From contig JAKBEL010000022.1 of the NCBI GenBank assembly GCA_021833825.1, forward strand, positions 1 to 44,804: 44,804 bases of DNA, read 5' to 3'. Shown one piece after another: positions 21,633 through 44,689 of this stretch. Below the pieces are notes generated by a model. The model saw only the letters and a program-made list of their open reading frames with translations, made no database searches and had not been told where the DNA came from. How positions within the stretch are numbered: the first letter of the stretch is position 1; the number at the start of each line of letters is the position of its first letter. The translations under genes were made by a program, and so were the position numbers. This stretch comes from a bacterium. Lineage in GTDB: Bacteria > Babelota > Babeliae > Babelales > Vermiphilaceae.

Positions 21633-22736
21633 ATGAAAAAACAGATATCTTTACTGCTCGTTGCGGTAGCACTTAACCTGAGCAATGGTGCGCAGGCTGG
21701 AAGCCTTTCAAGTACAAGAAGAGCCCTCAATACTTTATTCCGACAAGCTGGACAGGCCGTATCTCAATCCAAAAGCGGATTGTCACAAGATGTTATTAAC
21801 GCTGTTCGCAATTATGGAACTCAATCAAGAGCTGGATTGTTTAATAATGCTGTTCGTAATTATGTAACTCAGTCAGGCGCTGGCTTGTTGAATTATGCAA
21901 AACAGCCCATGGAAGAGCTTGCTATGACTACAATAAAAAGACCTTATACCCAAGCAAGCTCTTGGTGGCCCTTCTCTCTCTCTGCAATCTTACCCTTTCT
22001 TTCTCAAAAAGATGAAGAAGCTGCTGAGAATGATCGCCAAAGGTTGATAGATGAAATGTTTGAGAGCACCCCTGACTCTAATAGAGATAAGCAGAATAAA
22101 GGGATAGAAGCTATAAAGGCGGGAGCTAATCCTAATGCTCTCAGTGGACACTGCGGAGAGACACTATTAATGATCGCTGCACTGAAAGGCAATCTAGAAG
22201 CTCTTCATGCATTGATAAAGGCCGGTGCTGATCTAAATGCTAAAGACAATCATGGACAGACACCATTAATGTACGCTATAAACGGTCGTCATTTAGAAGC
22301 TCTTCATGCATTGATAAAGGCCGGTGCTGATCTGAATGCTAAAGACAATGATGGATACACACCATTACACATCGCTGAAATGTATCTCGACTCCCCAATA
22401 TTTATTGCATTGATAAAAGCTGGTCCTGATCTGAATGCTAAAAACAAGTATGGACAAACACCATTAATGACAGCTGTAGTTAGGGGACATAGCACAAAGC
22501 ATATTAATGTATTGATAGAAGCTGGTGCTGATCTGAATGCTAAAGACAATGATGGAGAAACACCATTAATGAAAGCTGCAATGGGGGGCCGTTTAGATGT
22601 TGTTAAGAAATTGATACAAGCTGGTGCTGATGTTAATGCTAAAGACAATGATGGACAAACACCATTAATGAAAGCTGCAAGGAAGGGCCGTTTAGATGTT
22701 GTTGATGCATTGAAACAAGCTGGTGCTCAAAAATAA
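21633..22736 (+). CDS. Secreted ankyrin-repeat protein 1
   Basis: The 367-residue product has a signal peptide (predicted cut after GAQA). An N-terminal region of about 125 residues follows with an internal repeat (NYGTQSRAGLFNNAVRNYVTQSGAGLLNYA), then a hydrophobic stretch WWPFSLSAILPFL. A half repeat and six ankyrin repeats of 33-34 residues follow from about residue 165 (consensus DNDGQTPLMKAA..G..D....LI.AGAD.NAK). The last two repeats are nearly identical to each other. Ankyrin proteins of intracellular bacteria often bind host proteins; here that is inference. Start: AAAGGA 7 bases before ATG. Terminator at 22761. Confidence 0.92.
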   Translation: MKKQISLLLVAVALNLSNGAQAGSLSSTRRALNTLFRQAGQAVSQSKSGLSQDVINAVRNYGTQSRAGLFNNAVRNYVTQSGAGLLNYAKQPMEELAMTTIKRPYTQASSWWPFSLSAILPFLSQKDEEAAENDRQRLIDEMFESTPDSNRDKQNKGIEAIKAGANPNALSGHCGETLLMIAALKGNLEALHALIKAGADLNAKDNHGQTPLMYAINGRHLEALHALIKAGADLNAKDNDGYTPLHIAEMYLDSPIFIALIKAGPDLNAKNKYGQTPLMTAVVRGHSTKHINVLIEAGADLNAKDNDGETPLMKAAMGGRLDVVKKLIQAGADVNAKDNDGQTPLMKAARKGRLDVVDALKQAGAQK

Positions 22737-23021: not shown

Positions 23022-24062
23022 ATGAAAAAACAGATATCTTTACTGCTCGTTGCGGTAGCACTTAACCTGAGCAATGGTGCGCAGGCTGGAAGCCTTTCAA
23101 GTACAAGAAGAGCCCTCAATACTTTATTCCGACAAGCTGGACAGGCCGTATCTCAATCCAAAAGCGGATTGTCACAAGATGTTATTAACGCTGTTCGCAA
23201 TTATGGAACTCAATCAAGAGCTGGATTGTTTAATAATGCTGTTCGTAATTATGTAACTCAGTCAGGCGCTGGCTTGTTGAATTATGCAAAACAGCCCATG
23301 GAAGAGCTTGCTATGACTACAATAAAAAGACCTTATACCCAAGCAAGCCCTTGGTGGCCGTTTTCTCTCTCTGCAATCTTACCCTTTCTTTATCAAAAAG
23401 ATGACGAAGCTACTGAGAATGCTGACGATGAAACGTTTAGTTGGCTTAATTCAGAAGTAGAGAAAAGAGGGTTAGAAGCTATAAAAGAAGGGGGCAATCC
23501 TAATGTTCGCGATAAAAATGGAAGGACACTATTAATGGTGGCTTCATTGACAGGCGATTTAGAAAATCTTCATACCTTGATAAAGGCTGGCGCTGATCTG
23601 AATGCTAAAGATAGATCTGGAGATACAGCATTACACAAAGCTATAAATACTGATAAATTAGAATCTGTTCGTGCATTGATAAAGGCTGGCGCTGATCCGA
23701 ATATTAAAAGAAATACTGGAAGCACACCATTACACATAGCTACAAGGCTTGAAAATTTACCAATTCTTCATACATTGATAGAAGCTGGCGCTGATGTTAA
23801 TACTAAAGACAATAATGGACAAACACCATTAATGGTCGCTGTATTTAGAGGCTATAAAGATCATACTAATACATTAATACAGAGTGGTGCTGATGTTAAT
23901 GCTCAAGACAATAATGGGAACACCGTATTAAGCCTGGCTATTAAATCCCCCTTCTCCAGGAATGATATCATTAATGCACTGAGAGAAGCTGGTGCGAAAG
24001 AATATCCAGATAATGCACCAAAGTCATGGACAGAATGGGCATACAAACAACTTGGTTATTAA
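23022..24062 (+). CDS. Secreted ankyrin-repeat protein 2
   Basis: The 346-residue product is identical to protein 1 over about the first 110 residues (signal peptide and repeat-containing N-terminal region) with a few changes up to about residue 125 (QASP for QASS, LYQK for LSQK). The rest is strongly diverged: a half repeat and five ankyrin repeats (e.g. DKNGRTLLMVASLTGDLENL, RNTGSTPLHIATRLENLPIL) and an extra C-terminal tail PKSWTEWAYKQLGY. Promoter, leader hairpin and ribosome site are those of gene 1. Export with different ligand specificity is a reasonable inference. Confidence 0.92.
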   Translation: MKKQISLLLVAVALNLSNGAQAGSLSSTRRALNTLFRQAGQAVSQSKSGLSQDVINAVRNYGTQSRAGLFNNAVRNYVTQSGAGLLNYAKQPMEELAMTTIKRPYTQASPWWPFSLSAILPFLYQKDDEATENADDETFSWLNSEVEKRGLEAIKEGGNPNVRDKNGRTLLMVASLTGDLENLHTLIKAGADLNAKDRSGDTALHKAINTDKLESVRALIKAGADPNIKRNTGSTPLHIATRLENLPILHTLIEAGADVNTKDNNGQTPLMVAVFRGYKDHTNTLIQSGADVNAQDNNGNTVLSLAIKSPFSRNDIINALREAGAKEYPDNAPKSWTEWAYKQLGY

Positions 24063-30782: not shown

Positions 30783-32333
30783 TTAATCGAGATGAGACCC
30801 ACAATAATAAAAACCTTTTCTCGTCTCAACACACTCCTCTTGATCATTATATGTAAAGACCTCTTCTCTGCTTTTGCGCGGATCGCTTACAGTACGAATA
30901 AACTGACCCTTGCTGGTCACCATCTCCTCTTGCGTAAAATAACCAATAACTTCTTCTTTGACTACTTTCAATTCTTTTTCCACTTGCTTCTCTGTCACCC
31001 AACCCGTAATCTCTGCATCCTCGATTTTCACGCCCTGATGTTCAAAGTTCTTTGGCAATGTTACCTTATAGCGCACCTTCTTTTCAACTTCAAACTCAAC
31101 CTCTTTATACTCTTTTTTAACAATATCAATCTTTAATAACTCTTGACCATTGCCTTTATCATTAGAAGGACTTTCAGCCTCTTTTCCATACCTTTTTCCT
31201 GCTAAAAAATATCTCTCAATAAGAAAAGAGCAACCTCTGCCATTATGCCCCTTTTGTTTCTTATCGCAATACTCAATCTGTTCTCTTTCAGAATACTTTT
31301 TATTCAAAGTTAAAAATATAGTAGAAACTGTTTTTTGCAATCTTTGCATAATTAATAGAGCAAAGTCTGCCCGCACAGACTGCTCTTTGTACCAAATCCT
31401 AAAATTAACAACAGAATTATAATCTGCAAAACCTGCGCCACAGATTACATCTGGCTGATGATTGGATATCTCTTGAATATAAGCATCTTGCTCAATAAAA
31501 TCTTTCTTAATATGAAAACCCGATCGCATCTCAAAAGGATCATATGGGATGATTTGCACTCTACCTGGATAATGTTGACTCAAAAAATCTGTAAATATTG
31601 CAAATCTCTCTTTTTCCCTTTCTTCCTCTTGTTGAGGTCTAAAATTCTTGTCACGTGCAACATTACACATAATTATCTTTAAATTACTGTTTGATCCTGC
31701 AAGTATTTTACACGCATTGACCAGATCCGAAAGCAATGATTGTTTTCCAAATCCAACATAACAAATATCTTGATTCGAATTCATTTTTTCACGCACAAGC
31801 TCAAGAACTTTTTCTGAATATTGATTTTGAAAGTCAAAATAGTTCTCCTGTGTGGCATTACTAAAACGTTGAAATACTGGAGAGATTACATACAGCTTCT
31901 CAAGGGGGGAGGTGGCCGGCGCAACGAGCTTCATGCATGGATATACAATATAATTTTCACAACATTCTTGTAACTCGCTTTTATTATAAGACGATCTAAA
32001 AACCTCATGCGATCTGCCATTACCATCAGTAGCAACATCTTTATAGAATTGAACTGTATCGTCTACTATAGTTTTAAGTGGCTGAGAAATTCGCTTAGGA
32101 TGGCTCAGGTGTGTATGAAAAGCAACAGCTATAAGAGGAATTGTCACCTCTGGATTATCCCACATAAAAGATGCTGTGTTTTTTAACATAGATGATCCGG
32201 CCGACTTCAGCAATGATCCCATTGTAGGCAAACAAGAGATGCTCCTCTCATCCGATGAAAAGATTGATCCAACCTGCGCAAAAGATATCACTAGACAAAC
32301 AATAATACTTTTTTTAATTTTTAAATAAATCAT
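30783..32333 (-). CDS. Large secreted protein, unknown function
   Basis: The 516-residue product has an N-terminal signal (KKSIIVCLVISFAQVGSIFS). The middle has a Rossmann-like flavour (ICYVGFGKQSLLSDLVNACKIL, then LKIIMCNVARD at about 200-240, and QPDVICGAGFADYNSV at about 300), which could be a methyltransferase-like fold but lacks a definite motif. The C-terminal quarter is rich in K/E/V strands (KEYKEVEFEVEKKVRYKVTLP) and ends in several cysteines. The only upstream site is a weak GGAA. I cannot assign a family. Confidence 0.7.
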   Translation of the reverse strand: MIYLKIKKSIIVCLVISFAQVGSIFSSDERSISCLPTMGSLLKSAGSSMLKNTASFMWDNPEVTIPLIAVAFHTHLSHPKRISQPLKTIVDDTVQFYKDVATDGNGRSHEVFRSSYNKSELQECCENYIVYPCMKLVAPATSPLEKLYVISPVFQRFSNATQENYFDFQNQYSEKVLELVREKMNSNQDICYVGFGKQSLLSDLVNACKILAGSNSNLKIIMCNVARDKNFRPQQEEEREKERFAIFTDFLSQHYPGRVQIIPYDPFEMRSGFHIKKDFIEQDAYIQEISNHQPDVICGAGFADYNSVVNFRIWYKEQSVRADFALLIMQRLQKTVSTIFLTLNKKYSEREQIEYCDKKQKGHNGRGCSFLIERYFLAGKRYGKEAESPSNDKGNGQELLKIDIVKKEYKEVEFEVEKKVRYKVTLPKNFEHQGVKIEDAEITGWVTEKQVEKELKVVKEEVIGYFTQEEMVTSKGQFIRTVSDPRKSREEVFTYNDQEECVETRKGFYYCGSHLD

Positions 32334-32815: not shown

Positions 32816-34072
32816 TTAAAATAATTCTGCCCAGTTAAATCCACCAATCGCTGAAGTACCTCCAGCAACTGGCGCATACCCCGTTATAGTTAATGTTTCT
32901 CCAGGGTATACTATAATATTGGTGTCTGTAAGACTTATATATTCAGGTAGATTCCAAGCTCGTGGAGACATCCATTGAGAAAGAACCTTAGTCCCTGTTC
33001 CCGCACTATAAGTTCCAGCAGCTGTATAGGAAACAATAGAATTGCTGTTGACACTCGTAAATGAAGTTCCTGTTACTGTTGCATTTTTATAAATGTTTAT
33101 TAAAAATGTATAACGAGTAAGATTTGGAATCGGAAAGGCAAAATATCGTTGCAACTGAACATTCATCTTATTTATCTGCCCATTAAAATTGGTGCTATTT
33201 TGTATAGTCAAGAGATGCGTTTCAACACTTGTTGCTATTGAGACAGTATTATTAATGCCAAAAAATCTATTTGCAACGTTGCTCTGTATTCCCACAATAC
33301 CCATATTCCAACTTGCAGTTTTAAGCTGAAGGTTCCGCCCACCACTCGGGTCATAAACCTGCGCACTTATTGGCAATAAAGCATTTCGAATTGAAGGAGC
33401 ACCAGAACTATTAGGATACTTAATAGTATGGAAGGTAATCCAGTCGCCTGAACTGCTCATAATCTGAAATTGAATAATGGATGCCCCAAGCCATCCATAT
33501 GCTATGTGAAAAACATTGAAAAAGGTTGGATTATAGTTAAAACCAGAAGATCCAGCACCGTTGATTGTGTCACCATTAAAATTAGCTTGTGATATAAAGG
33601 TATCAACTCCATTGTTACGCGTTACAATACCAAAAGTGGTGCCATTATATCCAACACCAAAACCATTACTGCTATCAAGTACACCTATATATTGTTTTGC
33701 ATTAGCACCTACTGCTCCAGTGAATGCCACAGTGAAATAGGCATCAGCTTGATGGCCGGACCGATATTGCACATTTGTTTTTGATTGCAATCCTGCTACA
33801 GCACCGGCAGTGCCGCTCGTGGATAATACCGCTTGACTATTACTTGTAGTTGCCGTTCCCCCATTGAGTAAAGTAGTTGTAAGAATAGAGCTCGGTATGC
33901 CATACTGAAATTGTACGCTAAGAGCATCAAGACGTGGATCGACTTCTAAATCTTGATAGATTGAAATAAATGGACTACTTATACCGGCAACTTGTCCGGC
34001 ATAATTTAATTGACTAGCAAAAAGAGTATTACCTATAAATAACGATGACATTAATATTAGTATAATCTTCAT
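32816..34072 (-). CDS. Fibre-operon gene 5: secreted head-only paralog (no stalk)
   Basis: The 418-residue product (from ATG at 34072) has a signal peptide (KIILILMSSLFIGNTLFA) and a short linker, then the conserved head almost at once: LDALSVQFQYGIPSS, YRSGHQADAYFTVAFTGAVGANAKQYIGVLDSSNGFGVGYNG, FNVFHIAYGWLGASIIQFQIMSS, WITFHTIKYPNSSGAPS and a C-terminal FNWAELF. The repetitive stalk and the CC pair of the other four are absent. It is the last gene of the operon, 2 bp after the stop of gene 4 (TAAACATG), with the GGGAGGAG ribosome site inside gene 4. Its own end reads GGGCAGAA, so no ribosome site is kept where no gene follows. Confidence 0.85.
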   Translation of the reverse strand: MKIILILMSSLFIGNTLFASQLNYAGQVAGISSPFISIYQDLEVDPRLDALSVQFQYGIPSSILTTTLLNGGTATTSNSQAVLSTSGTAGAVAGLQSKTNVQYRSGHQADAYFTVAFTGAVGANAKQYIGVLDSSNGFGVGYNGTTFGIVTRNNGVDTFISQANFNGDTINGAGSSGFNYNPTFFNVFHIAYGWLGASIIQFQIMSSSGDWITFHTIKYPNSSGAPSIRNALLPISAQVYDPSGGRNLQLKTASWNMGIVGIQSNVANRFFGINNTVSIATSVETHLLTIQNSTNFNGQINKMNVQLQRYFAFPIPNLTRYTFLINIYKNATVTGTSFTSVNSNSIVSYTAAGTYSAGTGTKVLSQWMSPRAWNLPEYISLTDTNIIVYPGETLTITGYAPVAGGTSAIGGFNWAELF

Positions 34073-34074
34073 GT

Positions 34075-36681
34075 TTAAAATTGCTCCTCCCAAGTTATAC
34101 CCCCAATGCGCGCAAGGGAATTAGTAACATTGACAAGCAAAGTCAATGTTTCTCCCGGCATTATAGTAATGATATATGCATCTAATGGAATATTTTGTAG
34201 AGCTGTATTTGCACTCGAGTTAAATATTATGAATCCTACAACCGTCCCCGTGCCAGCAGAATAGGTTCCTGCCGTTGAGACCTCTACAACAGAATTGGTA
34301 ACATTAAAATTACTAAAAGAGGTTCCCGTAACTGTTGCATTTTTAATTAATGTAGCGGTACTCGTAGTTCCATCGACCGCACCTCCTCCAAAACTTGTAC
34401 ATCTTACTTTAATTTTATTAGGGGCATTATTAAAAATGGATGCATTTCTAATAACAAGGGCAACCTGTGTTCCCGCAACTGCTGCTGTTACTGTTGAAGC
34501 AGCTCCATATCGATATGAACTATTGTTTGATTGCCCAATAATGCCACCATTCCAACTGGCAGTTCGCAATGTTAAAACTGATGTTCCGGCAAGATTTTCA
34601 ACACGAGCTGTAATCGGTAAAAATGGCTGAAAAATGGAGGGTGTTGATGCGCTATTTGGATACTGTATAGTATGAAAAGTGATCCAGGCCCCATAAGTAC
34701 TCATAATTTGAAATTGGATTACCGTGCTACCAAGATAACCATATCTTATTCTAAATACATTAAGTAATGCAGGATTATAGGTGAATTGACTTGGACCAGT
34801 ACCATCAAGTTTATCCCCATTGAATTGCGATTGGGGTGTAAAACTATTGACAGTATTGGTACGATGAGTCACGCCAAAACTTGCGCCATCAAAACCAACA
34901 GCAAAACCATTTTGATAATCAATGGGCCCAATCAATTGAGATGATGTTGCAGCAAATGATCCAGTGAATGCAACTGTGAAAAGAGCATAAGCTTCATGAC
35001 CTGATCGATAAGTAATGGTACTATCTGTTTGAAGCTGCGCTATCGAACCAGCTGATGCAGTAGTACTCAAAACTGCCATACTGTTAGCAGTTGTTACTGT
35101 TCCGCCTCCTTGAGTATAAGATGTTGTAGTATAATTTGATATGCCATACTGAAACTGTATACTAATATCATCAAGTGTGTTTTCCATTACCTGTACACCA
35201 AAAATAGAGGTTGTTATCGGATTTGTGCTCGTAGTATTAGTACAGCAAAATGAAAGTGTAGCAAGTTTGCTGGCTATTGCAGTGTCAACACCAACAATAT
35301 TGTTACCATAAGACTGAATACCGCTTATATTGCTAGAAAGAGTATTAATGCTTGATTGTAATGGTGCATCCGTATCAATGTTAGATGATATTGTTTGACT
35401 TATATTGTATATATTGTTGAGATTGGACTGAATAGCAGATGTTCTAGTATCGATAACATTAAGGGTCGATAAAATAGATTGATCGATAGTAATAGCTTGA
35501 CTAACTGAACTACACAGAGGATTGCCTGTACGCACTTGTGTATCAATAAGGTTAACTAACGATTGAATAGTTTGATCGATTGCAATATTGACATCAAGTT
35601 TTGACGATGTGGAGGTATCTAAGCTAAACAGATTATTTACTTTAGACGAAATATTTTGATCAATACTATAAATATTATTTAAGTTTGATTGAATTGTTAA
35701 TGTTCTAAGGTCAATAACATTCACTTTTGATAATGTAGTTTGATCACTTACCAAAATCTCCGAAAGTTGACTACAGCTTATAGCCCCTAATCTAGAATCT
35801 ATATCCACGACCAATGATTGAGTTTGTTGATCAAACGCTATACTGCGATCAACCTGTGATGATATAATCTGATCAACACTATACATACTGTTTGTTCTAG
35901 CATCAATCACATTCACAACCGATTGTGTTGACAGGTTACTATTTTCAATCAGATCAAACTTACTGCCGACTGTAGTGTGTACAAATTGATCAAGAGTATT
36001 TAAAGTAGATTCAATCGTCAAGGTTCGTGCATTAATATCCTGGACATATGAGAAAATTGTTTGATCAAGATTATAAATACTGCTTGTTTTTGTATCAATC
36101 GCCTGTACAGCTGACAAAATAGACTGTTCATTATTTAAAATTTGAGATATTCCGCTACATGAAGCACTAATAGTACTTGCTTTAGAATCTATAATCATTA
36201 ATTTTGAAAGAATAGCCTGCTCTAAAGTTATGTCCACATCAACTTTAGATGAAGTAGATTGTTCAATATTATAGATACTGGCCGTTTTGATATCTATAAG
36301 ACTAACAACCGATGTTATTGAAAGATGATCATCTTCAATCAGATCAAGTTGACTATATATTGAACCACCAACAAAGTGGTTGAGAGAATTAGTCTTTGAT
36401 ATGACATTTTCAGTGTGGGCATTAATATCTTCAACATATGATGTAATCGTTGTCAAATCGTTTGCAATAGTCTCGATATCACTTAACTGTTGATCAATAA
36501 AATTTAAAAGGGATTCTGCAACACAAACTTTTGAAAGAATCGTGATATCAATAAGTAAATCTGTAAACACATTATTCCAAAGTCGTGTTCCATTATTGGG
36601 ACAACAGGACGTTGCAACTATAATCGGCATATAAACAGATAATATGATAAGAATAATGCAAGGCTTTTTTTTAAATATCAT
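34075..36681 (-). CDS. Fibre-operon gene 4: secreted stalk-and-head protein
   Basis: About 868 residues from the ATG at 36681, with a signal peptide (CIILIILSVYMPIIVATS) and the family start LWNNVFTDLLIDITILSKVC. A stalk of about 430 residues is built of repeats such as QTIQSLVNLIDTQV, QSILSTLNVIDTRTSAIQS and DQTISSNID, with hydrophobics spaced 3-4 apart as in coiled-coil fibres. Isolated cysteines recur, and CC lies near residue 480. The head follows (ISIQFQYGISN to WEEQF). The start overlaps the stop of gene 3 (TAATG). Its final TGG GAG GAG CAA TTT TAA supplies the ribosome site for gene 5. Function unknown. Confidence 0.88.
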   Translation of the reverse strand: MIFKKKPCIILIILSVYMPIIVATSCCPNNGTRLWNNVFTDLLIDITILSKVCVAESLLNFIDQQLSDIETIANDLTTITSYVEDINAHTENVISKTNSLNHFVGGSIYSQLDLIEDDHLSITSVVSLIDIKTASIYNIEQSTSSKVDVDITLEQAILSKLMIIDSKASTISASCSGISQILNNEQSILSAVQAIDTKTSSIYNLDQTIFSYVQDINARTLTIESTLNTLDQFVHTTVGSKFDLIENSNLSTQSVVNVIDARTNSMYSVDQIISSQVDRSIAFDQQTQSLVVDIDSRLGAISCSQLSEILVSDQTTLSKVNVIDLRTLTIQSNLNNIYSIDQNISSKVNNLFSLDTSTSSKLDVNIAIDQTIQSLVNLIDTQVRTGNPLCSSVSQAITIDQSILSTLNVIDTRTSAIQSNLNNIYNISQTISSNIDTDAPLQSSINTLSSNISGIQSYGNNIVGVDTAIASKLATLSFCCTNTTSTNPITTSIFGVQVMENTLDDISIQFQYGISNYTTTSYTQGGGTVTTANSMAVLSTTASAGSIAQLQTDSTITYRSGHEAYALFTVAFTGSFAATSSQLIGPIDYQNGFAVGFDGASFGVTHRTNTVNSFTPQSQFNGDKLDGTGPSQFTYNPALLNVFRIRYGYLGSTVIQFQIMSTYGAWITFHTIQYPNSASTPSIFQPFLPITARVENLAGTSVLTLRTASWNGGIIGQSNNSSYRYGAASTVTAAVAGTQVALVIRNASIFNNAPNKIKVRCTSFGGGAVDGTTSTATLIKNATVTGTSFSNFNVTNSVVEVSTAGTYSAGTGTVVGFIIFNSSANTALQNIPLDAYIITIMPGETLTLLVNVTNSLARIGGITWEEQF

Positions 36682-39296
36682 TAGAATTGCTCCTCCCACA
36701 TTAATAATCCTGTCTGGGAAGAAGCTGATCCTTGGGTCGTAAGAGTCAATGTTTCGCCTGGAAACAACAGAATTGAAAAAGGGTTATTGGTAAAAAAGAA
36801 TGGACCAAATCCAAGGGAAAGAGTCAATGTCGCATATACAAAAAGATCAGTTCCAGTTCCTACGCTAAATGTTCCTGCAGTGGAAACTTTTAAAACCGAA
36901 TCTCCTGCACTAACATCTACAAATGAAGTCCCTGAAACAGTGGCGTTTTTTATAACAGTATAATCCCCATTTATTATACCACCACCAATCCCTGTTAATC
37001 TAACAATTATTTTATTAGGTTGATTATTAAATATTAATGGATTTTGTAAAGTAAATACATGTGTTTCAGCAGTGCTGGCTGTAGTAACAGCACTATTAAA
37101 TTGAAAATATCTATATGAATTGCTGTTTGGTTCAGCAACAATCCCGGCTTTCCAGCTGGCAGTTTGTAATTTTAAAATCGATGTACCGCTTAAATTTTCA
37201 ACACGTGCTGTGACAGGCAAAAATGGTTGCAATATTAATGGCGTTGCTGATGTATTAGGATAGTTTATAGTATGAAAAGTTACCCAATTATTATAAGCAG
37301 TCAAAATTTGAAATTTGACAATAGATCCACCCAAATATCCATAGGCAATTCTAAAAAGGTTAAGGGCGGCAGGATTATAAGTAAATTGACTAGTTCCAGT
37401 GCCATCCAATTTGTCACCATTAAACTGTGATTGTGGAGTAAAGGTGTTAATTGTATTTGAACGACGAGTTACTCCAAAGGTGGGCCCATCAAAGCCGATT
37501 GCAAAACCGTTTTGATAATCAATAGGCCCGATGAACTGAGATGATGTTGCCGCAAATGATCCGGTGAATGCCACAGAGAAATAGGCGTAAGCCTCATGCC
37601 CTGAGCGATAGGTGATAACATTTTTTGTCTGAAGCTCTGCAATGGAAGAAGTTGAACCAGAAGTTAAAATGGCCATACTGTTTTGATTGGTAACAGTCGC
37701 CCCTCCTTGGGTGTAGGTATTCATAATCGTATTAGGAATGCCATATTGAAATGAGATATTAATATTGTCATTTGAGTAATCTGCGATCAATGAATTATAA
37801 AGAGAATTAAAAACAGTGTTAGAATTGGTTGTTCCTGTGCAACAGGTTGAAAGAGCATCAAGAATAGATTTATTCTCATTAGTAATGCTTGAGGTACTAG
37901 CGATACTTGATGAGATAATATTTGCCTTGCTATTTATAATGCTGACGGTTGATTGTGTTGCATCATCTATCCTTGTATCAACATCAATTTTAGATGAAAT
38001 TGATTGATCAATGGTATAGATGTTGCTCACATCTGATTGAATATTGCTTGTTCTGGTATCAATAACATTAACAGTAGATAATATTGATTGATTAATTTGT
38101 AAAAGCTGTATAATACTACTACATGAGGCAAGACTGTTAATAGTTGAGTTAATATTATTAAGAAGTGACGCAATGGTAACATCAAGCACAATAGAATCAT
38201 CAACTTTTGAACTTGTTGATTGTTGAACATTTAAAATAGTGCTTAAATTCGAACTGATTGTTTGATCAAGACTGAAAATATTATTAGTATTTGCTTGAAT
38301 AAGATTTGTTCTTGTATCTAAAAGCATAACGGTCGAAAGTATTGATTGATCAAGTGAGTCGAGTTGACTAGTAAGACTTGTTATACAGTTAAGATTACCA
38401 ACTTTTGAATCAATAATATTAATAGCTGATTGAACAGATGCTGCTAAAACTGTATAATTAGAGAGTTTAGACAAGATAGTTTGATCTATGTTATAGATGC
38501 TGCTTGTTCTAGTGTCAATAACACTTACCAATGATCCTATTGATTGATCAGTGGCTATAATAAGATCAAGCTTGCTATTAATCGTATTATCGACAAAACT
38601 ATTAATAGTATTTACTGTTGACTGTATAGTTGTCACCTGTTGATCAATATTTTGAGCATATGAATTTATATTCTGATCAACGTTATAAATAGAACCTGTT
38701 CGTGTATCAATCACATTAATTATTGATAAAATAGACTGTTCTGTTTGTAAAATTTCATCAACTCCACTGCATGCAAAATTTAGGTTACTTATGGCAGAAT
38801 CAATAACCATGATCTTTGAGAAAATACTCTGATCAGTTTCAATACCAAGATCAATAAACGATGCTATATTTTGGTCTATGCTATAGATACTGTTTGTTCT
38901 AGTCTCAACAACATTTACCAACGATAATATTGATGCATCAACTTTTTCAATAAGATTTATTTTACTTTCAAAAGGACCAGTAATAAAAGAACCAAGATCA
39001 TCTGTGGTTGATTCTATACTTATGATCTCTGCATCAATAATTTCAACATATGAGGTAATAGTTACAAGCTTTGTATTTAAAGAGCTATTAAAGTTGCTAA
39101 TATGTAATTCGATGTTGTCTATTATTGATTCAATAGTACATACTTTGGATAATACTGATATATCAACAATAAGATCATTTTCAACGTTATTCCATAACCG
39201 AGAAGTCATTTCTGGAAAAATGCAGCCTGCTTTCAACAGAGCAAAAGAGGATAAAAAACTTAATAAAAATATATATAATATTATTGTTTTTTTCAT
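36681..39296 (-). CDS. Fibre-operon gene 3: secreted stalk-and-head protein
   Basis: The 871-residue product has a signal peptide (KKTIILYIFLLSFLSSFALLKA) and the family start RLWNNVENDLIVDISVLSKVC. The stalk repeats (SILSIINVIDTRTGSIYNVD, SLVSVIDTRTSSIYNIDQTILSKL) are followed by CC and then the head: ISFQYGIPN, YRSGHEAYAYFSVAFTGSF, IGPIDYQNGFAIGFDGPTFGV, FNGDKLDGTGTSQF, TGLLMWEEQF. Head DNA is near-identical to gene 2 in places (for example around 37560-37610 and 40210-40260), a sign of recent duplication or gene conversion. ATG immediately follows the gene 2 stop. Function unknown. Confidence 0.88.
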   Translation of the reverse strand: MKKTIILYIFLLSFLSSFALLKAGCIFPEMTSRLWNNVENDLIVDISVLSKVCTIESIIDNIELHISNFNSSLNTKLVTITSYVEIIDAEIISIESTTDDLGSFITGPFESKINLIEKVDASILSLVNVVETRTNSIYSIDQNIASFIDLGIETDQSIFSKIMVIDSAISNLNFACSGVDEILQTEQSILSIINVIDTRTGSIYNVDQNINSYAQNIDQQVTTIQSTVNTINSFVDNTINSKLDLIIATDQSIGSLVSVIDTRTSSIYNIDQTILSKLSNYTVLAASVQSAINIIDSKVGNLNCITSLTSQLDSLDQSILSTVMLLDTRTNLIQANTNNIFSLDQTISSNLSTILNVQQSTSSKVDDSIVLDVTIASLLNNINSTINSLASCSSIIQLLQINQSILSTVNVIDTRTSNIQSDVSNIYTIDQSISSKIDVDTRIDDATQSTVSIINSKANIISSSIASTSSITNENKSILDALSTCCTGTTNSNTVFNSLYNSLIADYSNDNINISFQYGIPNTIMNTYTQGGATVTNQNSMAILTSGSTSSIAELQTKNVITYRSGHEAYAYFSVAFTGSFAATSSQFIGPIDYQNGFAIGFDGPTFGVTRRSNTINTFTPQSQFNGDKLDGTGTSQFTYNPAALNLFRIAYGYLGGSIVKFQILTAYNNWVTFHTINYPNTSATPLILQPFLPVTARVENLSGTSILKLQTASWKAGIVAEPNSNSYRYFQFNSAVTTASTAETHVFTLQNPLIFNNQPNKIIVRLTGIGGGIINGDYTVIKNATVSGTSFVDVSAGDSVLKVSTAGTFSVGTGTDLFVYATLTLSLGFGPFFFTNNPFSILLFPGETLTLTTQGSASSQTGLLMWEEQF

Positions 39297-41927
39297 TTAA
39301 AATCGCTCCTCCCATATAAGGCCACCAATTGCAGCTGTTGTCGTTCCGCTTATAAGTTGACCAGTAATTGTCAATGTATCCCCTGGTAATAATATAATGT
39401 CATAAGTTCCCTGAGGTATAAAAACGATTTGTGGTGATTGGGTCGTTCCTCCTAATTGCCTGATAAGCAACTCAGTACCTGTTCCAGCTGAATAGGTACC
39501 GCTTTTTGAAACCTCTACTACAGAACTTCCTGGAGAAACGTCAGAAAAAGATGTCCCTGTAATGGTAGCATTTAATTTAAGTCTTAAAGCTGTAATACTA
39601 TTCGCTACAGAACCAGTGAGAGCTCCCCCACCAAAAGCTGAAATTCTTACAGGAATCTTATTTGGTTGATTATTAAAAACGGTTTTATTGCGAATGATAA
39701 GTATAAAAGTCTCAGTCCCTGGCAATGAGCCTACGGTGTCATTGGACTGAAAATAACGATATGATGAGTTACTAAATTGTCCAACAATGCCCGCATTCCA
39801 GCTAGCGGTTTTTAGTTGTAAACTGGATGCACCTCCACTTAAATTTTCAACACGTGCCGTAATAGGTAAATAAGGTTGTAAAATGGATGGTGTTGATGAA
39901 CTATTAGGAAATGGAATAGTGTGAAAAGTGATCCAATTACCATTTTGATCCAAAATTTGAAATGTAATAATAGAGCTCCCAAGATAACCATATGCGATTC
40001 TAAAGACATTCAATAGCGCAGGATTGTAAGTGAATCCACTTGAACCAGTTCCGTCCAATTTGTCACCATTAAACTGGGATCGCGGAGTAAATGTGTTAAC
40101 TGTATTGGCACGACGAGTTACTCCAAAAGTTGGCCCATCAAACCCAATTGCAAAACCGTTTTGATAATCTATAGGTCCGATAAATTGTGATGAAGTGGCA
40201 GTAAACGATCCGGTGAATGCCACAGAGAAATAGGCGTAAGCCTCATGGCCAGATCGATAAACAATAGTATTATTTGTCTGTAATTGTGCAATCGATCCTG
40301 CAGATGTTGTTGCGGTTAGAACTGCCATACTGCTTGCGCTTGTTACGGTCCCACTATTTTGCGTATATGCTGTAACAGAATAGGTAGGAATACCATACTG
40401 AAATTGAATGGCAATATTATCAAGTCTATTGGCTACAAGTTGTTCTCCATAAAGAGTCGTTAATGCTTGGTTTCCTGTTGTGGTACAGCAGCTTGAAAAA
40501 GCAGAAACTGCAGAGTAGATGACACTTTCAAGGCTATAAATGGTATTAAGGCTTGATTGAACCGTATTAATGTTGGTGCTAATATTATTGACTATCGATT
40601 GAATAGATAGGTCACTGTTAGTTTCAATATCAACTTTTGATGATATGATTTGATCAAGGCTATAAATAAGATTACTATTTGATTGAATAGCCCCTGTTCT
40701 GGTGTCAATAACCTGTACCAATGAAGTAATTGATTGATCAAGGGAGGAAAGTTGCGTAATGTTGCTACATGCAAGAGCTCCCACATTTGAGGCAACATAA
40801 TTAAGAGTAGATTGCACTGATCTATCAATCGAAATAAGTGTATCCATTTTGGAAGAAATTGTCTGATCGAGAACAAAAATATTGTTTATATTAGAAGATA
40901 TTGTCTGATCAAGACTGAATATATTATTGGTAATGGATTGTATGTTACTACTGCGTGTATCGAGCACCATAACAGAAGATAAGATTGATTGATCTATAGG
41001 TGTTATACTATTAGCAAGACTAGAAACACAATTCAGAGAATCTAACCTTGAATTAATTACATTCACTAATGATTGTGTGGTTATATCGGCTTGAATATTA
41101 CCATCAACCTTAGATGTAATAATTTGATCAAGTTGATAGATGCTACTCGTTCTTGTATCTATAACATTAACAATCGATCCTACAGATGCATCACTGTTTT
41201 CAATCAATGCAACCTGACTTGAAATAGTAGTAGCAGTGTAGGCATTAAGATCATTAATAATGGATTGAACAGTCACATTTTGTTGATTAATATTCTGGAC
41301 ATAGGATAAGATTGTTCGATCAATGCTATAAATACTGCTTGTCCGAGTATCGATAACATTGACCAAAGATTGTATAGATTGACTGGTGATCAAAGCTGAA
41401 AGTAAATCTGTGCATGATAGATTGACATTAGTTATTTTTGAATCGACAACCATAACTTTTGAAAGAACCGATTGTTCTATTTCGCTATAAAAATCTATTT
41501 TAGATGATATTTTTTGATCCAAGCTATAGACTGAACTGGTTCGAGTGCCTATCACATTAACAACTGATTGAATCGAAATTCCACCAGTTTCAATGAGGTC
41601 AAGCTCACTATTTATAGGTCCGGTAATTAATGAATTAAGGTTATCAACAGATGATGCAAGAGTGATAGTCTGTTGGTTAATGCGTTGAACATATGATTCT
41701 ATGGTGCTCAATTCTTGGTTAAGCCCATCTAAAAAGCTTGTACCATACTGCACATTGCCCAAAGCTGATTCAATGATGGATACTTTGGAAAGAGTCGTAA
41801 TATCTATCATGAGATCTCTCACTACATTGTCCCAAAGGCGTGATCCATTCTCAGGAATATTAGCAGAAGAACATACATACAATAAATTGAAATAAAAAAA
41901 AGACAAGATAACTATTATTCTTTTCAT
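39297..41927 (-). CDS. Fibre-operon gene 2: secreted stalk-and-head protein
   Basis: About 876 residues from the ATG at 41927, which overlaps the stop of gene 1 (TAATG); the open frame reaches further upstream but those codons are the gene 1 tail. Signal peptide KRIIVILSFFYFNLLYVCSS, then RLWDNVVRDLMIDITTLSKV. V(I/L)DTR(T/S)-type motifs start at residues 131, 197, 261, 327 and 412 of the open frame, and single cysteines lie at 178, 306 and 393 with CC at 486-487. The head ends IGGLIWEERF. GGGAAGAG in the gene 1 tail is its probable ribosome site. Exported; role unknown. Confidence 0.88.
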   Translation of the reverse strand: MKRIIVILSFFYFNLLYVCSSANIPENGSRLWDNVVRDLMIDITTLSKVSIIESALGNVQYGTSFLDGLNQELSTIESYVQRINQQTITLASSVDNLNSLITGPINSELDLIETGGISIQSVVNVIGTRTSSVYSLDQKISSKIDFYSEIEQSVLSKVMVVDSKITNVNLSCTDLLSALITSQSIQSLVNVIDTRTSSIYSIDRTILSYVQNINQQNVTVQSIINDLNAYTATTISSQVALIENSDASVGSIVNVIDTRTSSIYQLDQIITSKVDGNIQADITTQSLVNVINSRLDSLNCVSSLANSITPIDQSILSSVMVLDTRSSNIQSITNNIFSLDQTISSNINNIFVLDQTISSKMDTLISIDRSVQSTLNYVASNVGALACSNITQLSSLDQSITSLVQVIDTRTGAIQSNSNLIYSLDQIISSKVDIETNSDLSIQSIVNNISTNINTVQSSLNTIYSLESVIYSAVSAFSSCCTTTGNQALTTLYGEQLVANRLDNIAIQFQYGIPTYSVTAYTQNSGTVTSASSMAVLTATTSAGSIAQLQTNNTIVYRSGHEAYAYFSVAFTGSFTATSSQFIGPIDYQNGFAIGFDGPTFGVTRRANTVNTFTPRSQFNGDKLDGTGSSGFTYNPALLNVFRIAYGYLGSSIITFQILDQNGNWITFHTIPFPNSSSTPSILQPYLPITARVENLSGGASSLQLKTASWNAGIVGQFSNSSYRYFQSNDTVGSLPGTETFILIIRNKTVFNNQPNKIPVRISAFGGGALTGSVANSITALRLKLNATITGTSFSDVSPGSSVVEVSKSGTYSAGTGTELLIRQLGGTTQSPQIVFIPQGTYDIILLPGDTLTITGQLISGTTTAAIGGLIWEERF

Positions 41928-44569
41928 TAAAATTGCTCTTCCCATAGAATATTAACATCTACTAAAGTACCATTTGCTTCTCCAACTCCACTAATAGTTA
42001 GAGTTTCACCTGGCAATAAAACAAGATTAAAAGTCTGATTAGGAAAAAGCTGTACAATAGAGCCATTACTTCTTCCAGAAGAAGGATTTATCAAGGCAGT
42101 TGTACCTCCTGAAAAGCTGCCTGTAGTTGAAACCTGCATTACTGAGTTAGTAGCATTAACATCAGTAAATGAAGTGCCAGTAAGTGTAGCATTTTTTATA
42201 AGCGAAATTATAGAGTACAGGTTATCAACGCTATTATTTCCTCCGCCAAAACCAACAATATTAACCTGAATTTTATTAGCTCGATTGTTAAATATTGTTT
42301 TATTTTTAAGAGCTAAAATAAAAGTAGGGGTTGTATTTATAGATTTTCCTTTAAGATTTTGCTTGAAGTATCTATAGGAACTATTATTAGGAGTTCCTAC
42401 AATGCCTCCATTCCAACTGACCGTCCTCATAGAAAGCACAGATGTTCCTGCTAAATTTTCCACTCGTGCTGTGATAGGCAAATAAGGCTGTGTTATTGCA
42501 GGAACTGACAATGTATTCAAAAAATTGAATGTATGAAATGTTATCCAAGCACCAAAACTGTTCATGATTTGAAACGTTATAATAGAAGCACCTGCACCCG
42601 CATAATTGATACGAAAAACATTAAGTAAGTTTGGACTATAATTAAATCCACTAGATCCTCTTCCATCAAGAGTGTCGCCATTGAATTGTGATTGAGGAAT
42701 AAAGGTATTAATAGTATTACTACGATAGGTTATGCCAAATGTTGCACCATCAAAGCCAACAGCAAAACCATCACTATAATCAATAGGTCCAATAAACTGT
42801 GACGAGGTAGAAGTAAATGAACCAGTGAATGCAACAGTAAAAAGGGCGTAAGCTTGATGTGCTGCGCGATATAAAATAGTATTGTTTGTCTGAAGCTGAG
42901 CAATAGAACCAGCCGATGGAGCTGTGCGCAATATAACCGAACTGTCTGATGTAGTGACGGTGCCCCCTCCTTGCGTATATGCAGTGGTTGTTGGAGGAAT
43001 ACCATATTGAAATTGGAGACTTATACTATCAATTCTATTATCAACTAATTGAGTTCCATATAAGGTGGTGAACGGTTGATTAGCAGTGGTTCCTGTACAG
43101 CATGCTGATAATGCAGAAAGTTTACTGTTTATAAGGCTGTTTAATGATGCTATGGGGCTAATGGTTGATTGCATAATATCAGTATTACTGTTAATAATAT
43201 TTACACTCGATTGTGTTGAACGATCAATGTTAAGATTTACATCAATTTTTGAAGATATAGTGGAGGTAATATTTGAAATATTAGTAATAGTTGATTGTAT
43301 AGTACTTGTTCTGGTATCAATTACATTAACAATGGATTGTACTCTTAAATCATTATTAGCTATTGAAGTAATTGCGCTACAAGGATTAATAGTATTAACA
43401 GCAGAATTAATAAAACTAACAGTTGAGAGTATAGTTTGATCAAGAGAAATATTAACATCAGCTTTTGATGATATTGCTTCATCAAGACTATAAATGTTAT
43501 TAACATTTGATGATATTATCTGATCAATGCTGTATATGTTATTGACTGTCGTTACAATGGTGCTTGTCCTGGTGTCAATAACCAAAAGCTTAGAAAGTGT
43601 TATTTGATCATTATTTACAATGTGTGAAAAAGAACTGCAATTCAAAGCAAGTTTATCAACTTTGGAATCAATTACTTGCACAATTGATTGAATAGTGCTC
43701 TCTATAGATGTATTAAGATCAATCTGAGAAGATATTCTTTGATCAATACTATATATACTGTCTGTTCTGGTATCAATAACATTGACCGTGGAAAGAATTG
43801 AAGTACTGCTATTGTCAATAACATCAAGATTGCTATTTAATGTTAAAACTAACTTATTTAAATTAGATACTGACGAATCAATACTTAACTCTTGACTATT
43901 GATATTTGAAATATAAGAAAGAATACTGATATCTGTGCTATAAATACTGTTTGTACGCGTATCAATTACCTGAACTGTTGATAAAATAGATTGATCATTT
44001 TGTGCAATTTGTGATAGCCCACTGCAGTTGGGGCTAAAATTAGCAATATCAGCGTTGAGGGCCATAACTTTTGAAAGGATTGTCTGATCGGTAGCAAAAT
44101 TGGCTTGCACTTTTGAAGATATCATTTGATCAAGGCTATACATGCTTGTTGTTCTTGTGTCTATCACTTCTACAGTTGAAAGAATCGAATTATCAGTATT
44201 TTCAATAAGATCAATGTTACTATTGATCGTGATATGAACAAACTGATCAAGGCCATTAAGCGTTGATTGAATAGTTGTATCGATTGAATTTATAAGATGT
44301 AGGTATGATTCTATACTTGCCAATAATGTAGAAATGTTTTCAATATCACTGATAATCGATAAAGATGGTAAAAAAGAATTGATAATGCATAGTTTTGAAA
44401 GAGTGGTTATATCAACCTCTAAGTCGGCAATAACATTATCCCAAACAGGAGTCCCATAATTTGGTAAAGTAGTAGCTTTCAATGGTAGTTGCAATGCTAA
44501 AGAAGATATATAGAAAATTACTATAAAAAATAATGTATAGATAGTTTTATAACTTTTCGGGGTTATCAT
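41927..44569 (-). CDS. Fibre-operon gene 1: secreted stalk-and-head protein
   Basis: The 880-residue product begins with a signal peptide (YTLFFIVIFYISSLA) and VWDNVIADLEVDITTLSKLC. In the stalk, VIDTRT starts at residues 136, 202, 265, 331 and 417 (numbered from the GTG at 44572), giving a 129-residue super-repeat (136/265, 202/331); cysteines at 183 and 312 keep the same step, a third is at 398, and CC at 491-492 precedes the head. The head (about 505-881) carries FQYGIPPTT, FTVAFTGSF, IGPIDYSDGFAVGFDG, ITARVENLAGTSVLSMRT and ends WEEQF. First gene of the operon; ATG at 44569 directly follows an in-frame GTG, with only a weak ribosome site. Confidence 0.88.
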   Translation of the reverse strand: MITPKSYKTIYTLFFIVIFYISSLALQLPLKATTLPNYGTPVWDNVIADLEVDITTLSKLCIINSFLPSLSIISDIENISTLLASIESYLHLINSIDTTIQSTLNGLDQFVHITINSNIDLIENTDNSILSTVEVIDTRTTSMYSLDQMISSKVQANFATDQTILSKVMALNADIANFSPNCSGLSQIAQNDQSILSTVQVIDTRTNSIYSTDISILSYISNINSQELSIDSSVSNLNKLVLTLNSNLDVIDNSSTSILSTVNVIDTRTDSIYSIDQRISSQIDLNTSIESTIQSIVQVIDSKVDKLALNCSSFSHIVNNDQITLSKLLVIDTRTSTIVTTVNNIYSIDQIISSNVNNIYSLDEAISSKADVNISLDQTILSTVSFINSAVNTINPCSAITSIANNDLRVQSIVNVIDTRTSTIQSTITNISNITSTISSKIDVNLNIDRSTQSSVNIINSNTDIMQSTISPIASLNSLINSKLSALSACCTGTTANQPFTTLYGTQLVDNRIDSISLQFQYGIPPTTTAYTQGGGTVTTSDSSVILRTAPSAGSIAQLQTNNTILYRAAHQAYALFTVAFTGSFTSTSSQFIGPIDYSDGFAVGFDGATFGITYRSNTINTFIPQSQFNGDTLDGRGSSGFNYSPNLLNVFRINYAGAGASIITFQIMNSFGAWITFHTFNFLNTLSVPAITQPYLPITARVENLAGTSVLSMRTVSWNGGIVGTPNNSSYRYFKQNLKGKSINTTPTFILALKNKTIFNNRANKIQVNIVGFGGGNNSVDNLYSIISLIKNATLTGTSFTDVNATNSVMQVSTTGSFSGGTTALINPSSGRSNGSIVQLFPNQTFNLVLLPGETLTISGVGEANGTLVDVNILWEEQF

Positions 44570-44689
44570 CACTTTACTTTATTACTCTCTATTTTTTTTG
44601 CTTTTTATCTTTTTTTCTTCGTGAGAAACCTACAATATTATTTTATAAAAAGCAAACTTCAAATAAATAATCATATTATAAAACAGTAG

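Follow-up and report, generated by a model that had tools for sequence, protein, structure and literature searches.

A five-gene array encoding candidate exported fibres with a virus-type head in a Dependentiae genome

The gene array and its chromosomal setting

The window, which is the whole stretch of 44,804 nucleotides analysed here, represents the entire contig C23 of a 1.23-Mb genome that is 96% complete. The host belongs to the order Babeliales (Dependentiae/TM6), a phylum of strictly intracellular bacteria with protists as the known hosts (PMC12172432). Positions 32816-44572 are filled by five adjacent minus-strand open reading frames (ORFs), as described in an earlier note on this DNA. 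There, all five were regarded as stalk-and-head paralogs with a shared N-terminal cap (N-cap). This description is valid for the four long proteins, whereas gene 5 encodes a head without stalk and N-cap and misses more than 400 columns, comprising both elements, in the alignment of the array proteins. The features are arranged as follows, with signal peptides assessed by eye from the sequence:

41927..44572, minus strand: gene 1, 881 aa; putative signal peptide, N-cap, coiled-coil stalk, head
43097..44440, minus strand: gene 1 stalk, residues ~45-492, heptad coiled coil, CC pair at the end
41930..43087, minus strand: gene 1 head, phrog_1645-like
39297..41927, minus strand: gene 2; putative signal peptide, N-cap, stalk, head (listed ORF start 41945)
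40485..41828, minus strand: gene 2 stalk, heptad coiled coil
39300..40478, minus strand: gene 2 head
36681..39296, minus strand: gene 3, 871 aa; putative signal peptide, N-cap, stalk, head
37839..39179, minus strand: gene 3 stalk, heptad coiled coil
36684..37838, minus strand: gene 3 head
34075..36681, minus strand: gene 4; putative signal peptide, N-cap, stalk, head (listed ORF start 36699)
35242..36576, minus strand: gene 4 stalk, heptad coiled coil
34078..35241, minus strand: gene 4 head
32816..34072, minus strand: gene 5; putative signal peptide and head, without stalk (listed ORF 32816-34093, 425 aa)
32819..33982, minus strand: gene 5 head, sequence used for modelling (pLDDT 85.7, pTM 0.78)

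The hydrophobic N-terminal stretch expected of an export signal is present on 5/5 proteins, and the five heads align with 41-44% identity to gene 5, so that the signal peptides and the conserved head claimed earlier were both recovered. The listed ORF starts reading 'MGGAIL' or 'MGRAIL' are artefacts, in which the reading begins upstream of the true start. The true ATG of gene 2 lies at 41927 and overlaps the stop of gene 1, that of gene 4 at 36681 overlaps the stop of gene 3, and that of gene 5 lies at 34072.

The four junctions read, in order, TAATG, TAAATG, TAATG and TAAACATG, with the ATG overlapping or following the preceding stop. A Shine-Dalgarno-like GGGAGGAG precedes each downstream ATG (GGGAAGAG at the first junction) and sits within the codons for the terminal W-E-E of the upstream protein. 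Stop and start are joined in this way and the Shine-Dalgarno-like sequences are located in the preceding W-E-E codons, which suggests that all five genes form a single translationally coupled unit. Only 232 bases separate this unit from the contig end, so its promoter must be located within them or past the end of the contig. At the junctions (41927, 39297, 36681 and 34075) a protein motif and a translation signal thus use the same bases.

The neighbours of the array in the window are pheT, lspA, pgpA, mreB, gpsA, uppS and two genes for PPIC/SurA-like proteins, therefore the setting is chromosomal and not that of a prophage. No phage gene was found in the surroundings of the array, and the plasmid collection searched contained no match to the window. 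Close to the array and on the same strand, a 516-aa protein with a putative export signal and without Pfam match is encoded (30783-32333). Two adjoining ankyrin-repeat proteins, a common type in intracellular bacteria, are encoded at 21633-22736 and 23022-24062. The genome encodes Omp85 proteins as well as secretins, which makes an outer membrane likely. In total it contains nine heads at three loci.

Stalk and head of the array proteins

The I/V/L spacing of 3-4 residues noticed earlier is borne out by spectral analysis, where the window stalks peak at a period of 3.48-3.52 with a power of 1.0-1.17, while shuffled sequences reached at most 0.44-0.50. Across the head-bearing stalks of this genome (6/6), a single hydrophobic period dominates at 3.46-3.52, with a power approximately double that of the strongest shuffle. 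In the heptad register search, position a is occupied by I/V/L and position d mostly by I, while S/T/N/D/Q fill the other positions; phase breaks are few and the scores exceed those of every shuffle. Ile/Val at both a and d favours trimers, as known from GCN4 variants. The proposed trimeric fibre is hence retained with respect to the stalk-and-head layout and the Ile/Val heptad core, while the trimeric state itself is something we infer from this core and from the presence of the same head on collagen and phage-fibre stalks (see below).

At 0.1485 nm per residue, a stalk of ~450 residues would measure ~67 nm and the 585-residue stalk encoded on contig C19 of the same genome ~87 nm, giving an overall range of about 65-90 nm. 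Across the four window stalks, cysteines are found at equivalent positions, and a CC pair marks the junction to the head; disulfides between the chains outside the cytoplasm would fit this pattern. Modelling of the full-length monomer, with a shallow stalk alignment, failed to converge (pLDDT 33.8), and the long helices of this model were set aside as evidence. The PHROG search of the window proteins yielded no significant tail-fibre profile; with hits of E 0.037 and above, a viral origin of the coiled-coil stalk was rejected. The Pfam search of the same proteins revealed no Gly-X-Y collagen repeat, and the stalk hits COG4_N, ATG17_like and ING were below the cut-offs and represent typical coiled-coil noise.

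For the head, the earlier note knew of no named family. A profile search has since assigned the heads to phrog_1645, a family of phage virion structural proteins, with E-values of 3.9e-27 to 5.6e-35 and a match spanning profile positions about 40-439 of 440. Among the array proteins the head falls into no Pfam family, and the PDB sequence search gave no relative of it. Using tblastn, 156 phage records were found, mostly of Synechococcus phages. In S-RIM2 the head homologue lies a few genes after the head-tail adaptor and head-closure genes, in phiGT1 it adjoins the portal gene, and on contig L028 it is located near a terminase match. The array genes are placed outside any virion gene cluster, with housekeeping neighbours and a putative signal peptide. 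A head copy without signal peptide is also encoded in Anaeromicropila populeti (L027:6311-10128), with no phage genes in view; its neighbours are a glycosyltransferase-like gene and the gene of a small protein whose N-terminus is similar (MNN.[IV]FN).

The head of gene 5 was modelled as an all-beta fold (pLDDT 85.7, pTM 0.78; 35 aligned relatives). The best fold matches of this model are predicted viral proteins, with E-values to 2.4e-30 and TMq to 0.88. They belong to uncultured phages, to the haloarchaeal tailed viruses HGTV-1, HHTV-1 and -2 and HFTV1, and to the giant viruses Bodo saltans virus, Mimivirus AB-566-O17 and Pyramimonas orientalis virus. For the giant viruses, this kinship is based on predicted folds with about 17-20% identity. 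For HFTV1, cryo-EM has described a deacetylase-like turret head protein with a galactose-binding-like domain, which may differ from the protein matched here by fold (PMC12494034).

In the PDB fold search, the receptor-binding domain of phage TM4 gp23 ranked first with low TM-scores of 0.33-0.35, followed by L-type lectins and staphylococcal adhesins that match the N-terminal half of the head. For this half of the predicted model, the L-type lectin match in Foldseek reached E-values to 5.8e-7 with a moderate TMt of about 0.5-0.64. The predicted N-terminal domain therefore resembles an L-type lectin, that is a concanavalin-like beta-sandwich. The C-terminal domain is more variable between the paralogs (mean identity 39% vs 62% for the N-terminal domain).

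Other loci, stalk exchange and distribution of the head

The two further head loci of this genome encode a 1023-aa stalked protein with a 423-aa head-only protein (C19) and a 926-aa stalked protein with a 426-aa head-only protein (C1). In other Dependentiae the same head is mounted on different rods. The 2125-aa protein of genome G043 has a stalk matching five phage tail-fibre PHROGs (E to 6.9e-50), the 1523-aa protein of G033 matches phage head-decoration (2.7e-21) and tail-fibre (3e-11) profiles, and the heads of G072 and G075 are borne on collagen-like repeats (PF01391, 6.6e-16 in G072). Three kinds of stalk, namely coiled coil, collagen and tail-fibre repeats, are thus found beneath the head in Dependentiae; the collagen and tail-fibre kinds are known to form trimers. 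Directly downstream of the stalked gene, 7/7 stalked-head loci have one or two head-only genes.

The stalk is exchanged as well. On contig C15 (L155:3343-5757) the coiled-coil stalk repeat VIDTRTSSIYNVDQTILS ends in a right-handed beta-helix (PF13229, 2e-20), and on C7 (L154:4187-7574) a near-identical repeat VIDTRTSSIYNVDQTILS was read with no head seen; both readings are incomplete owing to the contig edge and, at C7, masked bases. In G001, a genome of the same genus, the N-cap is followed by a stalk and a beta-helix end, read across masked bases. Matches to the N-cap profile are confined to this genus.

Several genes next to these loci are of note in their own right. Directly downstream of the head-only genes of G072 and G075 (L158:481-4206 and L159:641-4366), a 1241-aa protein with a putative export signal combines beta-helix-like sequence with a WD40 propeller. 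On C19 (L108:3820-6265), two genes for leucine-rich-repeat proteins come directly after the head-only gene, the first of which overlaps it. In G079 (L161:107-4834), the genes following a head-only gene encode a beta-helix-like protein and a 660-aa protein of GNVTGDITGN repeats, the latter weakly matching a phage structural PHROG; this is another set of the same modules.

The head is present in 8/101 genomes of the phylum and is therefore not a general host-entry factor of Dependentiae. A single origin of all Dependentiae heads was rejected by the AU test (p 1.5e-5), in which the Dependentiae clade was set against the phage and Anaeromicropila heads. The heads on collagen stalks group with that of the Lachnospiraceae-type bacterium A. 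populeti (97/93). Because of both results, repeated transfer of the head appears likely, on a tree with some long branches. Within this genome, a single origin of the three head-only genes was rejected too (AU test, p 0.0008): two of them share a lineage, and the third descends from a stalked gene. The pairing of stalked and stalkless proteins has thus arisen repeatedly, an argument for its usefulness.

Interpretation and comparison with known fibres

Taken together, the array probably encodes modular exported fibres, presumably trimeric, which carry a virus-type head and serve host attachment. Here, the signal peptide would lead each long protein out of the cytoplasm and the short N-cap would hold it at the cell envelope. 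A parallel, probably trimeric heptad coiled coil would extend the protein by about 65-70 nm, and the fibre would end in the predicted two-domain all-beta head common to phage virion proteins. The likely ligands are glycans on the surface of the protist host. Since the N-terminal domain is lectin-like and the C-terminal domain is the most variable part between paralogs, it is probable that the specificities of the heads differ. The head-only protein, whose gene closes the unit, would probably accompany the fibres, be it as a short peg, as a partner at the tip or as a lectin that is released.

The proteins could instead build a surface coat or matrix or make cells aggregate, in which case the heads would bind to one another or to polysaccharide of the cell itself and not to a host. 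The large number of paralogs in the operon and the nine heads of the genome would fit to this, a lectin-like fold suits self-polysaccharide too, and the head has its relatives among structural proteins of virions. However, the C-terminal head domains of the paralogs are strongly diverged, unlike those of a uniform coat protein, and the exchange of stalks and heads resembles adhesins, so that this explanation is considered unlikely. Somewhat less likely still is a role as secreted or periplasmic lectins with targets inside the host or on other microbes, such as decoys that are released or blockers of glycans; the stalk would then only multimerise the heads. The putative signal peptides, the head-only copies and the lack of a recognised outer-membrane anchor agree with this, but the conserved N-cap, which is common to the beta-helix fibre of the same genus, suggests anchoring, and a stalk of 65-90 nm suggests reach and not release.

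Virion fibres of a prophage, a tailocin or an extracellular injection system would explain why the head belongs to a virion structural family and why stalks in sister genomes match phage tail fibres. On the contrary, the copies that were read have apparent signal peptides, the inspected neighbours include no gene for a capsid, portal, sheath or tube, and the loci lie among housekeeping genes (pheT, lepA, gatA and the zwf region). This makes such an origin very improbable, and a prophage or tailocin locus was ruled out by the signal peptides and the neighbours.

With host attachment as the preferred reading, the array provides concrete, expressible candidates for attachment proteins of Dependentiae. 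No attachment protein is named in the two Dependentiae papers covered by text search, though the phylum lives inside protists, and searches of open-access papers gave nothing relevant on fibres of Dependentiae or on secreted tail fibres that had been domesticated. The array further represents a virus-type particle module that is built into putatively exported bacterial proteins with interchangeable trimer-type stalks. Since protist giant viruses have the predicted head fold too, the idea that bacteria and viruses share receptors becomes testable. As a tentative wider view, a receptor-binding module might circulate among phages, archaeal tailed viruses, protist giant viruses and protist-dwelling bacteria. 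Dependentiae might have acquired it repeatedly, mounted it on available trimeric rods together with a stalkless partner, and use it to recognise the protist glycans that giant viruses recognise.

Among known systems, the phrog_1645 proteins, for example of Synechococcus myoviruses such as S-RIM2 and gene 4 of Sulfitobacter phage phiGT1, share a homologous head over 300+ residues. The phage versions are ~400 aa long and stalkless like the head-only proteins described here, whereas the array proteins have putative signal peptides and long stalks and are encoded in a paralog operon among housekeeping genes. The predicted N-terminal domain matches the beta-sandwich fold by which L-type lectins (ERGIC-53, legume lectins) and adhesins of lectin-like type (SraP, SasG) are characterised; compared to these proteins the identity is about 10-15% and the head has a second, C-terminal domain.

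Trimeric autotransporter adhesins (type Vc, YadA type) are likewise exported and join a binding head to a long heptad coiled coil rich in S/T/N/D. Their head is N-terminal and their YadA membrane anchor C-terminal, in contrast to the C-terminal head and the lack of such an anchor here. No match to YadA_anchor (PF03895) was obtained in the genome and the array proteins, and with the head at the wrong end an identity as trimeric autotransporter was rejected. Lipoprotein anchoring was rejected as well, since the cysteines near the mature N-terminus of several copies are not part of a canonical L-[AS]-[GA]-C by eye.

Phage tail fibres (phrog_16641, phrog_24210, phrog_5668), whose repeats build the stalk of the relative in G043, consist of a rod followed by a C-terminal head, as do the window proteins. 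The latter differ in being cellular, in their putative signal peptide, in their position outside a phage gene cluster and in their coiled-coil stalk. Collagen-like adhesins (Scl1, Legionella Lcl, Pasteuria Pcl7) join a secreted trimer-type rod to a globular domain, and the relatives in G072 and G075, which combine a collagen stalk with this head, are akin to them. The window proteins are distinguished from these adhesins by a stalk without Gly-X-Y repeat and by a head that is a different, virus-type domain.
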